Shown here: positions 34,013 through 38,575 of the stretch, piece after piece
Position numbering within the stretch: position 1 is the stretch's first letter
Layout of the letters: every line of letters begins with the position of its first letter
NCBI RefSeq assembly: GCF_014982715.1
Contig: NZ_JADCJY010000002.1
Location: forward strand, 1 to 64,000
Direction: 5' to 3'
DNA: 64,000 bases
From: Gallalistipes aquisgranensis
GTDB lineage: Bacteria > Bacteroidota > Bacteroidia > Bacteroidales > Rikenellaceae
The notes under the pieces: generated by a model
Seen by the model: only the letters and a program-made list of their open reading frames with translations
Databases searched by the model: none
Told to the model about the DNA's origin: nothing
Made by a program: the position numbers and the translations under genes

Positions 34013-34087
34013 CGGGGTGTAGCTCAGCCCGGTTAGAGTACACGTCTGGGGGGCGTGTGGTCGTACGTTCGAATCGTATCACCCCGA
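34013..34087 (+). tRNA. tRNA-Pro (anticodon GGG)
   Basis: Acceptor CGGGGTG pairs with CACCCCG and the discriminator is A. The D-arm contains AGCTCAGCCCGGTTAGA. The anticodon stem CACGT/GCGTG encloses CTGGGGG (anticodon GGG). The T-arm is GTACG TTCGAAT CGTAT (with one mismatch-tolerant pair). The gene is intact; its 3' part is duplicated at 36889-36944, so the tRNA served as an integration site. Confidence 0.94.
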
Positions 34088-34088
34088 C
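34033..34088. repeat. 56-bp direct repeat, left junction (attL-like)
   Basis: 3' three quarters of tRNA-Pro from the D-loop to one base past the discriminator. It is identical to 36889-36944 with no mismatch. Confidence 0.92.
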
Positions 34089-34093
34089 AAATT

Positions 34094-34125
34094 AGGCCTA
34101 AGTATTAATCACTTAGGCCTTTTTG
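34094..34125 (+). terminator. Terminator directly after tRNA-Pro, inside the island
   Basis: A 10-bp stem (AGGCCTAAGT at 34094-34103 pairs with 34111-34120), followed by TTTTG. It is brought in by the island and replaces the native terminator now found at 36947-36980. Confidence 0.8.
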
Positions 34126-34471
34126 TTTCCGCATACGTTTCCGCTTTAAAATGAAAATCTCGGTTTGAGGTCTTCTACCCGGATAAATACGGAGTATCTC
34201 CACTCATTTCTACTTCACTTATCGCCCCCACAGGAAACAATCCTAAAAAAGTTTTTCCGGATAACTTTATGCCGAAATCTTGCAACTGGATTCTGTGAAC
34301 ATTATTTGGAGCAGTTCAAACAACAGATACGAGGACAGACTTTGACAGGGGTCTTAATATAAACACTTTGACAATGTTTGTCCTTTTTATACTATATCCT
34401 TTTTATTTCAATTATAATTTCATAACTTGTATTGCATATATGTAGATGATTAATAATCATTAGTTTTTTCA
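34126..34471. other. Gene-poor left end of the island
   Basis: No convincing gene. A short frame ending at 34362 (CRNLATGFCEHYLEQF) has no recognisable relatives and may be a remnant of a deleted gene. The AT-rich segment 34380-34470 precedes the CoiA-like gene and probably holds its promoter. Confidence 0.5.
34372..34387 (+). repeat. 16-bp repeat upstream of the CoiA-like gene
   Basis: CAATGTTTGTCCTTTT, repeated exactly at 35449-35464 upstream of the next gene. Possibly a shared promoter or regulator site of the island. Confidence 0.7.
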
Positions 34472-35416
34472 ATGACAAAACTATTGCTTCCATACGCCAT
34501 TAATAGCTCTGGCAACCTTGTACACATTGATGACGCCCGTAAAGGCGATATTTATACATGTCCTTCATGTGGAGCGAATTTATCATTAAGAATTAGTAAA
34601 ATACCTGAAGGTCAAAAATATCATCGAATAAATCACTTTGCCCACAAAGGTTCTGTTGATAATCGTTGTTCGGAATCATTTCTGCATAAATTATTCAAAC
34701 AACGCGTAGCAGAGTATATAAGAACGGAGTTAGACAGGCCCAATAAAGCTATTTGGTTTGAATGGAAGTGTGATAAATGCAACGAACTACATAAGGGGAA
34801 CTTACTAAAAAAAGCAACTCAAGTCATTGAAGAATTAGACTTGCAAGTATGTAGGCCCGATATTGCATTACTTGATAAAGATGGTAAAGTTGTCATAGTA
34901 ATAGAAATTGTGGTGACACATAAACCTTCGTCAGAGACATTACAATTCTATAAAGATAATAAGATTGCATGTCTACAAATCGAGGTCTCTGATTTTTCAG
35001 AATGTGACAGGATACAAGAGAAAGTATTGCATCCAAACGCTGTAAGTATGTGTCCAAACCCGATTTGTAAAAAATGCGGAGAGGTAATGAATAGTGCCAA
35101 ATTAATAGTTGTTACTGCCCCATGCTGGAAATGTTCTAATGCCATGAAAATTGCCATGATTGTATCAAATGACGGCAATTACATACATAGTCCCAAGGTT
35201 TTTACCAATGATGAAATTAGGAAGGCTCAAATGTTTGGAGTAAATATTAAAAACCGATATAGTCAAACGGTACGAGAAAATTATTGGGCAAATGTTTGTG
35301 ATAAATGCAATGCATTCGTAGGAGATTTTTATATGCATGGCTATTTCAATTTACCTCATGACGAAGAGGTAGATTTAAGTTATAAATGCTTTAATTGTAT
35401 GCAAATGGAGTATTAA
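34472..35416 (+). CDS. CoiA-like zinc-ribbon protein with nuclease-like core
   Basis: A 314-residue protein, strongly AT-rich in codon use compared with its surroundings. The N-terminal part (TCPSCGANLSLRIS, HFAHKGS) resembles competence protein CoiA. The middle CRPDIALLDKDGKVVIVIEIVVTHK has the D...ExV arrangement of PD-(D/E)XK nucleases. The C-terminal half has paired cysteines (CPNPICKKCG, CWKC, CDKC, CFNC), i.e. several zinc ribbons. CoiA family members process DNA in transformation; here, within a mobile island, a nuclease role in defence or DNA uptake is inference. The start is the ATG at 34472. Confidence 0.65.
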   Translation: MTKLLLPYAINSSGNLVHIDDARKGDIYTCPSCGANLSLRISKIPEGQKYHRINHFAHKGSVDNRCSESFLHKLFKQRVAEYIRTELDRPNKAIWFEWKCDKCNELHKGNLLKKATQVIEELDLQVCRPDIALLDKDGKVVIVIEIVVTHKPSSETLQFYKDNKIACLQIEVSDFSECDRIQEKVLHPNAVSMCPNPICKKCGEVMNSAKLIVVTAPCWKCSNAMKIAMIVSNDGNYIHSPKVFTNDEIRKAQMFGVNIKNRYSQTVRENYWANVCDKCNAFVGDFYMHGYFNLPHDEEVDLSYKCFNCMQMEY

Positions 35417-35448
35417 AAGACGAAATAGAAGCCGAGACCCATTTTATG

Positions 35449-35464
35449 CAATGTTTGTCCTTTT
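35449..35464 (+). repeat. 16-bp repeat upstream of the A1S_2505-type gene
   Basis: Second copy of CAATGTTTGTCCTTTT (see 34372-34387), ending 18 bases before the start codon at 35483. Confidence 0.7.
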
Positions 35465-35482
35465 CGATATTTTTACCTAATT

Positions 35483-35863
35483 ATGAGAATAGCATCCAAT
35501 CATATCATCACACTCCAATCTAATGAAATTTTCGTCTTCGGAAGTAATCTGGCAGGACAACATGGAGGTGGTGCAGCGCGGTTGGCATATCAGAAATTCG
35601 GGGCTGTTTGGGGGCAGGGTGTCGGATTGCAAGGACAAAGTTATGCTATACCGACCATGCAAGGTGGAGTAGAGACTATTAAGCCCTATGTAGACGAGTT
35701 CATTGAGTTTGCAAAGCAACATCCACAACTCAAATTCTTGGTGACGGAAATCGGTTGCGGGATAGCAGGATTCACTCCAACCGAGATTGCTCCGTTATTT
35801 GAACAGGCAAAAGGAGTAAGCAATATCTATTTGCCAGAACACTTTTGGAAGCTACTTAAATAA
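35483..35863 (+). CDS. A1S_2505-family phage non-structural protein
   Basis: A 126-residue protein with the pattern NEIFVFGSNLAGQHGGGAARLAYQKFGAVWGQGVGLQGQSYAIPT followed by FLVTEIGCGIAGFTPTEIAPLFEQA. This matches a family seen in phages and mobile elements (NCBI name A1S_2505 family phage non-structural protein). The GSNLAGxHGGGAA loop recalls a nucleotide- or ADP-ribose-binding macro-like pocket, which is inference. It lies between the CoiA-like and zeta-toxin genes, same strand, with 66- and 75-base gaps. Confidence 0.75.
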   Translation: MRIASNHIITLQSNEIFVFGSNLAGQHGGGAARLAYQKFGAVWGQGVGLQGQSYAIPTMQGGVETIKPYVDEFIEFAKQHPQLKFLVTEIGCGIAGFTPTEIAPLFEQAKGVSNIYLPEHFWKLLK

Positions 35864-35938
35864 GATAAAATAGAGTATAAAGGCAAGCGGAAGATTTGGC
35901 ACAATTTATATAAATTATTATACCTTTGCTCATACGAT

Positions 35939-36520
35939 ATGCCGAAACTATACATCATAGCAGGTTGCAACGGTGCGGGAAAAACGACTGCATCCTATAC
36001 CGTATTACCTGAAATGCTCGGTTGCAAAGAGTTTGTCAATGCCGACGAGATTGCAAAAGGTCTATCACCGTTCAACCCCGAAAGCGTGGCAATCGAGGCG
36101 GGGCGGCTGATGTTGCAACGAATGGATGATCTGCTTGCAGAGGGTGCTGATTTTGCTTTTGAAACGACACTGGCGACACGCTCTTATGTGAGATTTATCG
36201 AGCGGGCACATGCGAAAGGCTACTTCGTAACCTTACTTTATTTTTGGTTGCCGACACCCGAACAAGCTATCGAACGTGTAGCGACACGGGTCAGAGAGGG
36301 CGGACATAATATTCCATCAGATGTCATTCGCCGTCGTTATGCAAATGGGATGAAGAATCTGACGACACTTTATACACCGATTTGCGATTTCTGGGCGATA
36401 TACGACAACAGTTCGGCAGATGCGGAGATTAAAATCGTTGCTTCGGGAGAGAAAGATACAACAATCCAAATAACAGATACGTTATCCTATAAAGCGATTA
36501 CAACCTATGAGCGAGCTTGA
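35939..36520 (+). CDS. Zeta-toxin family P-loop kinase
   Basis: A 193-residue protein with Walker A GCNGAGKTT (9-17), the zeta-toxin-type motif EFVNADEIAKGLSPFNPESVAIEAGRLM, FAFETTLATRSYVRFI and the LID-like region VREGGHNIPSDVIRRRY. Zeta toxins phosphorylate UDP-GlcNAc, but close Bacteroidetes relatives are uncharacterised and may act on another substrate. There is no epsilon-type antitoxin upstream. Instead a 52-residue ORF overlaps the 3' end by 14 bases, suggesting a coupled pair. Confidence 0.85.
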   Translation: MPKLYIIAGCNGAGKTTASYTVLPEMLGCKEFVNADEIAKGLSPFNPESVAIEAGRLMLQRMDDLLAEGADFAFETTLATRSYVRFIERAHAKGYFVTLLYFWLPTPEQAIERVATRVREGGHNIPSDVIRRRYANGMKNLTTLYTPICDFWAIYDNSSADAEIKIVASGEKDTTIQITDTLSYKAITTYERA

Positions 36521-36665
36521 AATAAAACAGATGCAGGAAAAGATCAATGCAGGGATTTTACTCGCCCGAAAGCGTCTGATCGAGAAAACCAAGAAAGAGG
36601 ACGGCGAATTGGTGGTCATGCGTGATGGCAAGGTCGTACGCATCAAAGCCAAAGACCTCAAATAA
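36507..36665 (+). CDS. Small basic protein overlapping the zeta-toxin gene
   Basis: A 52-residue ORF, start ATG at 36507 inside the last codons of the kinase gene (14-base overlap, other frame). The sequence is MSELEIKQMQEKINAGILLA at the start, then RKRLIEKTKK, then GELVVMRDGKVVRIKAKDLK. An N-terminal amphipathic helix is followed by a short beta segment. It ends just before a terminator. Translational coupling and size suggest an antitoxin or accessory partner of the kinase, which is inference. Confidence 0.65.
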   Translation: MSELEIKQMQEKINAGILLARKRLIEKTKKEDGELVVMRDGKVVRIKAKDLK

Positions 36666-36670
36666 TCTAT

Positions 36671-36700
36671 ATCCTCGGCTAAAGGGTCGGGGATTTTTCT
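36671..36700 (+). terminator. Terminator of the island cargo operon
   Basis: A 9-bp stem with two G-T pairs (ATCCTCGGC at 36671-36679 with 36686-36694), then TTTTTCTTTTT. It lies 5 bases after the small ORF stop. Confidence 0.75.
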
Positions 36701-36888
36701 TTTTGCTGAAACAAAAGCATCGCAACATTCTTAAAAGAAGGGAGCTGGAAAAAGTTTCTTGCACGTCTTTTCTTCTTGTTATCAATTCACTAATTGTCTA
36801 ACCATGATTGACTGTCGAATCAACCGACAAGTCAACCGTACCTGTTTCAGCTATCGCAATAAACTGATAACTTGTTTATTATATAGCT

Positions 36889-36944
36889 TTAGAGTACACG
36901 TCTGGGGGGCGTGTGGTCGTACGTTCGAATCGTATCACCCCGAC
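36889..36944. repeat. 56-bp direct repeat, right junction (attR-like tRNA-Pro 3' part)
   Basis: Exact copy of 34033-34088. It lacks the 5' acceptor strand and D-stem, so it is not a functional tRNA. It marks the right end of the island. Confidence 0.92.
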
Positions 36945-36946
36945 CG

Positions 36947-37147: not shown

Positions 37148-37717
37148 ATGAAAACTCTGAAATTCAAAATCGAAGGCGTATGCCCCCTGTTGCAGCACGA
37201 CGACAAAACCGCGAATCCATTCAATGAATATGCGAAACAGCTCAAGGCCATCTCCTCGAAACGGAAGAAGACGGAAGACGACCTGCTGGAAATGGCCCGT
37301 ATAGAGTGGCTGGCCGGACTATACCACACTCCGCAGTCCGGATATTTCATGAAAGCCGAATGTTTCGAAGGCTCCTTTTACGAAGCGGCCAAGGCGAAAA
37401 AACTGGGCAAGACATTCAAGGAAGCCGTCAGAATTCCGGACGATCCGGCATTCCATTTCGAACACGAGGCCCTCTCCCCCGACCAGCTGTTTCTCATGGA
37501 CGAATACAAAGATTTCAGGACCATCAAAATCCAGCGCTCCAAGGTTCTGCGCTGCCGCCCGATATTCAACCGGTGGCACTGCGAAATCGAGATATGGTAT
37601 GAGGAGACCCGGCTGAACGAACAGGAGATCCGGGATCTCGTGGAATACGCCGGCCGGTATATCGGCATCTGCGACTACCGGCCGAAGTACGGTCGGTTCC
37701 GCGCCACCGAAATCTGA
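37148..37717 (+). CDS. Phage-like conserved protein, function unknown
   Basis: A 189-residue protein starting MKTLKFKIEGVCPLLQHDDK with a Lys-rich helix (KQLKAISSKRKKTEDDLLEMARIEW). It contains YFMKAECFEGSFYEAAKAKK, and ends in a GICDYRPKYGRF-type motif. The overall beta-rich pattern with a terminal G-D-R-YGRF reminds me of small phage proteins and faintly of RAMP-like folds, but I cannot name a family with confidence. GC content is like the host, unlike the island to its left. Confidence 0.55.
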   Translation: MKTLKFKIEGVCPLLQHDDKTANPFNEYAKQLKAISSKRKKTEDDLLEMARIEWLAGLYHTPQSGYFMKAECFEGSFYEAAKAKKLGKTFKEAVRIPDDPAFHFEHEALSPDQLFLMDEYKDFRTIKIQRSKVLRCRPIFNRWHCEIEIWYEETRLNEQEIRDLVEYAGRYIGICDYRPKYGRFRATEI

Positions 37718-37735
37718 CATACGGCACGGTTCGGC

Positions 37736-37877
37736 GTGGCATGGCCTCGCAAGGCGGGACTGGGCATGATTTGGCGAGACGAGACGAGGCGGAACATGGC
37801 ATGGCTCCCCAGAAAGGGAGTGGCTTTAAAAGATAGTTCGGAATACTCAGGGGTTCGATTCCCCTGCTATCTGCAGG
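37736..37877 (+). repeat. Repeat unit 1 with acceptor/T-arm-like hairpin
   Basis: The core at 37831-37873 folds as AGATAGT pairing with GCTATCT, enclosing a short linker and the hairpin AGGGG-TTCGATT-CCCCT. This looks like the acceptor plus T arm of a tRNA without D and anticodon arms. The core is preceded by a TGGCATGGC-rich stretch and a CTCCC/GGGAG hairpin. The core is repeated at 38032-38073. Confidence 0.6.
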
Positions 37878-37927
37878 ACTGTCCCCGGCAGTCCGTCCCG
37901 GCGGAGTGGGCTCCGGCGAGACACGAC

Positions 37928-38075
37928 AGCGCAAGGTACGGTGCGGTGCAGAATGGCTGAGCGTGGCGGGATGCGGCTGGGCATGGCTTGTCCTGGCATG
38001 GCACGGCTCCGGAAAGGAGTGGCTTTCAAAGATAGTTTGGAATACACAGGGGTTCGATTCCCCTGCTATCTGCAC
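37928..38075 (+). repeat. Repeat unit 2 with acceptor/T-arm-like hairpin
   Basis: Second copy of the unit: AAAGGAGTGGCTTTCAAAGA, then GATAGTTTGGAATACACAGG, then GGTTCGATTCCCCTGCTATC. It differs from unit 1 at a few positions outside the stems, and the stem sequences are conserved. Upstream TGGCATGGC-like repeats are present again. Confidence 0.6.
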
Positions 38076-38098
38076 GCAAATAACCGGTATCTCATCAT

Positions 38099-38575
38099 AT
38101 GGAACCCATCCGAATCGACTCCGGACCCTGGAATATACTCGTGGAGGAAATCCTGGCAGTCTATGCGCCGGGCAGCCTGATTCCGCACGAATGGCTCAAA
38201 AACAGATTCCGTATCCGGGACAAATCCGAGCTGAAATTCAAGGATTACGGCAACGAGGCCGAATTCATCGCGGCCCTCGAACGGATCGACCGCACCTACC
38301 AGTTCCTCGTCGAGAGCCTGCAAAGCCGACTGCTGGAGGACAGGAAAGGCTACCTGGTCAACCGGCACGGGGAGGGCTACATGATCCTGCCTTACGACGA
38401 ACAGGTGGCGTACGCCTACAACCGGTTCATCGGGAAACTGGAGCGAAGCATAAAAAAGACGGACCGCATCATGAAATACCGTCCGCCCGTCTCCGCCGAA
38501 CAGCAGGCCAGGGACAACGACATCATCGCCCGCTACTCTTGGTTCACGCAAATGGTTCCCGTACTGAAAAAATAG
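38099..38575 (+). CDS. Unrecognised protein, possibly phage-derived
   Basis: A 158-residue, largely helical protein: IDSGPWNILVEEILAVYAPGSLIPHEWLKNRFRI, then ERIDRTYQFLVESLQSRLLEDRKGYLVNRHGEGYMILPYDEQVAYAYN. The central part (helix, helix, short beta hairpin GYLVNRHGEGYMIL) resembles a winged-helix layout, so DNA binding is possible. It shares strand and neighbourhood with the 189-residue phage-like gene. No family named. Confidence 0.5.
   Translation: MEPIRIDSGPWNILVEEILAVYAPGSLIPHEWLKNRFRIRDKSELKFKDYGNEAEFIAALERIDRTYQFLVESLQSRLLEDRKGYLVNRHGEGYMILPYDEQVAYAYNRFIGKLERSIKKTDRIMKYRPPVSAEQQARDNDIIARYSWFTQMVPVLKK

Follow-up and report, generated by a model that had tools for sequence, protein, structure and literature searches.

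A VIPR locus in Gallalistipes aquisgranensis with tRNA-like mini-helices as the 3′ tails of its guide RNAs

The region 37148-38575 of a 64,000-nt stretch of the Gallalistipes aquisgranensis genome (hereafter the window) is a VIPR system, and a pair of tRNA-like mini-helices within it form the distal 3′ tails of its guide RNAs. VIPR is a newly described, phage-derived and CRISPR-like DNA-recognition system that has been proposed as a pre-CRISPR form of RNA-guided recognition (PMC13142463). The window locus is ordered vipr, guide 1, mini-helix, guide 2, mini-helix, vap (Table 1). Judging from sequence, we consider it reasonably probable that each mini-helix is a minimal tRNA mimic through which host RNase P and RNase Z would release the guides. 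We give about even weight to a broader proposal, in which such loci would be natural tRNA-guide arrays of phyla without encoded CCA, the mimic would have arisen or been acquired more than once, and the Bacteroidota guides would be directed largely against conjugative elements. VIPR itself is already in a preprint.

Table 1 Features of the VIPR locus in the window.
Feature	Position	Strand	Description
vipr	37148-37717	+	189 aa; RAMP-fold protein; PHROG 4652 (E 1.1e-52)
vrRNA 1 guide array	37723-37802	+	16 GGYNN pentamers; GG intact in 10/16, Y in 16/16
vrRNA 1 tail, proximal part	37803-37830	+	GGCTCC hairpin and GAGTGGCTTTNAAA handle
tRNA-like mini-helix 1	37831-37875	+	acceptor 37831-37837/37866-37872; T-arm 37849-37865; then G73, C74, A
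vrRNA 2 guide array	37915-38004	+	18 pentamers; GG intact in 11/18, Y in 17/18
vrRNA 2 tail, proximal part	38005-38029	+	GGCTCC hairpin and GAGTGGCTTTCAA handle
tRNA-like mini-helix 2	38030-38074	+	acceptor 38030-38036/38065-38071; T-arm 38048-38064; then G73, C74, A
vap	38099-38575	+	158 aa; accessory protein; PHROG 5926 (E 1.8e-9)

Results

Genes of the locus

Vipr has a RAMP fold. Its AlphaFold2 model (pLDDT 94.6) finds its best PDB matches among Csm3/Cas7, Cas6 and Cas7-11 RAMPs (Z 11.2), the Csm3/Cas7 type being the best, and the protein is 32% identical to the VIPR-locus protein of phage SUSP1 (E 3e-38). The adjacent vap gene, which occupies the same place in the gene order of other loci, encodes a protein that profile comparison links to the gene following vipr in SUSP1 (probability 98.8%). 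Structural comparison of Vap returns weak wHTH matches (Z up to 6.1) and no Foldseek or PDB match at E ≤ 0.001; the predicted structure points to a probable winged-helix DNA-binding accessory protein. PHROG 4652 and PHROG 5926 both carry no functional annotation in PHROGs.

Relatives of Vipr were found in 130 phage records, in Dysgonomonas, a Bacteroides MAG and Comamonas, and in 34 viral contigs, and 129 phage records match the Vipr of phage MakoManhole; the search returned no Vap relatives among viral contigs and phages. The regions examined cover 8 phage records (of the 130 window-Vipr and 129 MakoManhole-Vipr matches) and 4 of 6 plasmid records, and in the loci examined a Vap relative usually comes after the Vipr relative. 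Within the family, 2 of 268 genomes carry both vipr and vap, namely the window's own and G220, a member of another genus. When the genome and its relatives were searched for the mini-helix core, as the preliminary description had advised, the own genome held two copies only, and among the 268 family genomes G220 alone contained a tail element, at 80% identity and between the same two genes. A same-genus genome has no vipr, vap or tail match; it matches other parts of the region only, so no clean empty site can be demonstrated.

Guide arrays and their targets

Both mini-helices had been described as preceded by TGGCATGGC-rich DNA. Such DNA is present, and is more exactly a phased GGY/NN pentamer array, the guide. 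With 16 and 18 units, the two arrays agree with the roughly 9-16 YNNGG repeats of VIPR guides. An imperfect GG occurs in 6 of the 16 and 7 of the 18 pentamers, so that the locus could be decaying. Phased GGY/NN arrays gave 85 matches in VIPR-type loci versus 2 in shuffles, and none in the 20 control loci L002-L021. In nearly all cases the arrays lie on the same strand as the vipr and vap genes. Of the four arrays at the SUSP1 locus, one lies upstream and three lie downstream, in agreement with the published description (PMC13142463). Each window array runs into a structured 3′ tail, the structure of which differs from that in the SUSP1 clade, and the proximal tail of vrRNA 1 is conserved in copy 2 and in the related VIPR loci compared. 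The unit common to the two copies spans about 80 nt; it starts with the final pentamers of the preceding array and continues, in this order, with the GGCTCC-loop-GGAG hairpin, GTGGCTTTNAAA, the mini-helix and GCA.

We decoded the guides by reading the NN dinucleotides with one skipped target base each, the published 1-nt-skip rule. This places the targets in mobile elements, and a reversed-pattern control gave 0 sites in each genome search. Guide 2 (12 units searched, at most 3 mismatches) has 28 sites in 23 of the 268 family genomes and none in its own genome. Over all 18 units, 28-32 of 36 letters match (15 of the 28 sites compared), including, in the best cases, 10 of 10 letters in five units outside the search pattern, while other skip lengths reach 22 at most. 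An order-wide draw of 295 genomes yields 13 sites in 10 of them (control 0), and the best site has 2 mismatches in 34. The target gene encodes a DUF4134 protein (E 9.6e-39) with a weak TrbC/VirB2 pilin match, and a DUF4133 gene follows it; we take the two to be TraE and TraF of Bacteroides conjugative elements. The DUF4134 target protein has no match in the own genome, an empty result that by itself does not establish absence.

Guide 1 has 3 sites in 3 of the 268 family genomes (control 0). Against viral-contig homologs it shows a moderate match of up to 27 of 32 letters; other skips reach 20 and shuffled order reaches 22. Its target gene lies behind a tail-sheath gene, and PHROGs label the product a major head or tail protein. 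The guide of G220, read in the same way, has 30 sites spread over 20 of the 268 family genomes (control 0); its 16 units match at 31 of 32 letters in 4 of the 8 loci read (of the 30 sites), and in those best loci 8 of 8 letters outside the search pattern match. The target gene is mobC, for a coupling protein. One of the 30 sites falls in the window's own genome (C1:1277764-1277798, minus strand, 2 mismatches), which thus probably has a similar coupling-protein gene. The vipr of G220 (L025/L030) has an in-frame stop, though its guide matches so closely, and its array exceeds 23 pentamers, perhaps as two overlapping guides.

In all three guides the last pentamer is unmatched to the target and hence probably belongs to the tail. 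The skipped base is the codon wobble position in the loci read, the same as in the published system (PMC13142463). Taken together, guide 2 seems to target a conjugative element and guide 1 a phage. The decoded targets are further evidence for the 1-nt-skip rule, here from another phylum, and widen its range to conjugation genes.

The mini-helix pair

The preliminary description had reported a duplicated stem joined to a T-arm hairpin without D or anticodon arm, and we confirm it as two 42-nt cores at 37831-37872 and 38030-38071, both on the plus strand. Each consists of a 7-bp acceptor-like stem (AGATAGT/GCTATCT) stacked on a 5-bp T-stem (AGGGG/CCCCT) with the loop TTCGATT. Folded singly, each copy adopts the acceptor plus T-arm shape at -13.9 kcal/mol (z -1.6 and -2.1), while copy 2 together with its upstream hairpin takes an alternative minimum fold, which counts against the processing model. 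Of the earlier statement that the stems are conserved and the linker varies, the first half stands; the linkers differ at only 2 positions and keep GG. A third core within 3 mismatches was found neither in the window nor in 100 shuffles, degenerate-pattern scans for the core in genome contigs and viral contigs gave 0 matches, and the intergenic region has no homolog in plasmid or phage DNA.

Neither ARAGORN nor Rfam (gathering thresholds) reports an ordinary tRNA at the mini-helices. With a permissive Rfam threshold, the strongest same-strand match by E-value is the T-arm of tmRNA. We rejected identity with an ordinary tRNA or tmRNA, as the D and anticodon arms are absent and tRNA finders report none.

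An attachment-site remnant had also been suggested, and the mini-helices might be the scar of another element or a fragment of an ordinary tRNA gene, given that their T-arm is identical to that of a tRNA-Glu gene and that a duplicated tRNA-Pro 3′ end lies 0.9 kb upstream. The other T-arm match in the own genome is a single 17-nt site (C1:1130826) inside the ARAGORN tRNA-Glu gene, and it does not reach the acceptor. No own-genome tRNA carries the acceptor half, so that the core does not match the 3′ end of an ordinary tRNA gene there. In other genomes the elements recur, with different stem sequences, next to this gene pair, and across other genomes and phages they go together with GGY arrays and have stems that changed independently. 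A scar is refuted on present data, and we rejected it as extremely improbable.

The tRNA-Pro gene (34013-34088) has its 3′ end repeated exactly at 36918-36943, bounding a segment (34013-36945) with a weak CoiA_N match, an A1S_2505-family protein and a zeta-toxin-like ORF. This segment is likely an integrated element distinct from the VIPR locus.

Recurrence and pairing of the mini-helix beside guide arrays

Mini-helices occur behind arrays 44 times (42 distinct) in 22 loci, and a looser rule finds 27 elsewhere in 1.87 Mb with both strands counted. These 44 rows are not 44 independent events, because L143 agrees in length and tails with Gordonia phage Trine (L221) and L135 and L142 are near copies. 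Under a strict rule, a perfect helix of at least 11 bp forms at 40 of 53 GTTCRANNC sites beside arrays versus 4 of 369 T-loop sites elsewhere, and in 78 of 2648 trials when halves are swapped between loci, which excludes chance. The search and the strict count both skipped 17 duplicate loci, and three of the four helices "elsewhere" are further copies in VIPR loci L072, L121 and L143.

The MAFFT alignments A6 and A7 mix stems of 5-7 bp and therefore misplace the acceptor strands, so that covariation was tested by half-swapping and in a gap-free subset. In this subset of 14 sequences, the percentage paired is circular because the subset was chosen by pairing, and 7 of 11 pairs show double changes. 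Both tests support a paired, covarying structure. Phage LittleE carries 4 copies with 4 unrelated stem sets. The earlier suggestions of a non-coding RNA and of tRNA likeness both gain support from these results: the mini-helix forms a structured tail on each of the two guide RNAs, and its acceptor/T-arm form recurs beside guide arrays.

The copies also share a tRNA signature outside the stems. The linker contains GG in 43 of 44 copies, at an offset of 2-3 in 38, where shuffled linkers give a mean of 26.7 and a highest value of 36. Position 73 is a purine in 44 of 44 and position 74 is C in 39 of 44. The ordinary tRNA genes of the loci compared end alike, with C74 in 29 of 31 and a full CCA in 3 of 31, these 31 genes coming mostly from loci chosen by T-arm match, with many tRNA-Glu and two unassigned calls. 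Minimal features of an RNase P and RNase Z substrate are present, namely 11-13 bp in 44 of 44 (required by the search), the T-loop and purine 73. The 44-row signature counts include L082, L083 and L104 and four mismatch rows, which are excluded from the alignments. In L082, L083 and L104 (about 280, 450 and 2910, plus strand) the tail is a different tRNA-like one, its 7-bp acceptor directly joined to the array, with a linker that holds a possible small D-arm-like hairpin (GCCAGATGGGGC) and then GATCCCCA.

Hosts and phylogeny

Among the loci whose host is named or clear, all five from Bacteroidota genomes (the window's, G220, Dysgonomonas twice and a Bacteroides MAG) and all four from Actinobacteria phages (MakoManhole, LittleE, prophiBWHA-1 and Trine) have the mini-helix. 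It occurs in 0 of 9 proteobacterial loci, which include two Ounavirinae phages, two Azospirillum and two Bradyrhizobium and so amount to few independent points. Most tRNA genes of Bacteroidota and Actinobacteria do not template CCA (PMC5143459). No mini-helix was found in the Bacteroidota-like viral contigs L035 and L153, or at some arrays of the related loci L054, L115 and L095. Behind vipr, L035 and L153 have long GGY arrays interrupted by GGTCAGAGGT-like motifs.

On the Vipr tree, mini-helix loci lie in the Bacteroidota group and in several other separate places, and the mostly proteobacterial sister of the Bacteroidota group has 0 mini-helix loci. A change count on this tree ignores 75 unlabelled rows and so does not fix the number of origins. 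On sequence grounds, mini-helix mimics seem to recur in several Vipr lineages, with known hosts in phyla that are usually without encoded CCA.

Discussion

In the mechanism that we propose, a polycistronic transcript would carry the guides, the mini-helices and the vap mRNA. Vipr, as a RAMP protein, would bind the guide RNAs, whose NN dinucleotides would recognise double-stranded DNA with one base skipped each, and Vap would assist Vipr. The mini-helix would present an acceptor helix that stacks on the T-arm to give 11-12 bp in all. In tRNA, the D-loop GG docks on the T-loop, and we suggest that the linker GG may stand in for it at the elbow. Host RNase P would cut at the 5′ side of the mini-helix and host RNase Z behind R73 on the 3′ side, and these cuts would free each guide RNA from the next guide and from the vap mRNA. 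The mini-helices are without a D arm, an anticodon arm and an encoded CCA, which counts against processing, and full RCC(A) favours bacterial RNase P. Other points that weigh against the model are the arrays and Bacteroidota-like viral contigs that lack a mini-helix, the 17-42 nt before the next array in the window and Dysgonomonas loci, the degenerate GG of the window pentamers, the moderate match of guide 1 and the small number of independent points in the host contrast.

Two precedents bear on such cleavage. Stacked acceptor/T-stem mini-helices serve as RNase P substrates (PMC11221534), and in Haloferax RNase P and tRNase Z release an engineered crRNA that is flanked by tRNA-like t-elements (PMC4326828). 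The model substrates resemble the window elements in that acceptor and T-stem stack coaxially over about 12 bp and other arms are absent, but end in GCCA (PMC11221534), whereas the present elements have R-C only. The Haloferax t-element and icrRNA likewise use a tRNA-like element to release a neighbour (5S rRNA; the engineered crRNA), but that system is archaeal and its guide version engineered (PMC4326828), whereas the window element is natural. Human MALAT1, with its mascRNA, also has a tRNA-like element adjoining a functional RNA and is matured by RNase P; unlike the window element, it has no known link to guide RNAs.

In the chief rival model the mature guide retains the mini-helix as its 3′ cap, which would be either a structured handle bound by Vipr or Vap or a tRNA-like end that keeps off 3′ exonucleases and may be given CCA; we regard this as possible, at a clear minority probability. 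The mini-helix does sit where the published invariable structured 3′ extension, or tail, sits (PMC13142463), the pseudoknotted tail of the SUSP1 clade may act likewise, and in actinobacterial-type loci there is little else between array and mini-helix. Copies within one phage nevertheless have completely different stems, so sequence-specific binding is unlikely. The first GG of the next array follows the mini-helix at a median of 8 nt (n = 37), as would be expected of a separator; in the window and in the Dysgonomonas loci L031 and L033 the next array comes 17-42 nt behind. Last units can also be without a mini-helix: it was not found at the last arrays of L219 (LittleE), L220 and L068, where a gene or a terminator-like hairpin comes next.

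We consider an action in cis on translation or transcription improbable, for instance as a tRNA-like 5′ UTR structure regulating vap. The stem of copy 2 does end 27 nt ahead of the vap start codon, but copy 1, like most copies elsewhere, is flanked by an array on either side and is not followed directly by a gene. The decoy raised in the preliminary description would titrate host tRNA enzymes or an anti-phage nuclease. It gained no specific support and we hold it to be quite improbable, since the mini-helix offers it the shape only, is coupled in cis to a guide array and has no anticodon arm for an anticodon nuclease.

Release by tRNA-processing enzymes is our preferred reading. The SUSP1, or type II, system is similar in its RAMP protein, its small DNA-binding accessory gene, its GGY/NN arrays with a structured tail, and its 1-nt-skip targets in mobile elements with the skipped base at the wobble position (PMC13142463). 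Its tail is a pseudoknot (PMC13142463), whereas that of the window is a tRNA acceptor/T-arm mini-helix. The window further differs from the SUSP1 clade in its Bacteroidota host, in targets that include conjugation genes and in its partly degenerate GG. Hammerhead ribozymes lie between guides in some VIPR types, and the main text does not describe how other guides are cut (PMC13142463). Arrays interspersed with hammerheads resemble the window in having an RNA element between guides as a possible separator, but they self-cleave (PMC13142463), whereas the window mimic would depend on host enzymes. The words "tRNA" and "RNase P" do not occur in the main text of PMC13142463, the supplement of which (figs S16-S20) could show such tails, and we found no report in the literature of natural tRNA-like separators between such guides.

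If this reading is correct, constructs engineered to join tRNA-like elements to guides would have a natural counterpart in the tRNA mimic between guides, and guide maturation would be tied to the tRNA biology of the host, in which CCA is encoded or not. It yields a testable prediction of cleavage by RNase P and RNase Z. Near other VIPR loci, Rfam also identifies a FopS sRNA (L031, 2075-2147) and a DUF3800-VII RNA (L048, 1459-1537).
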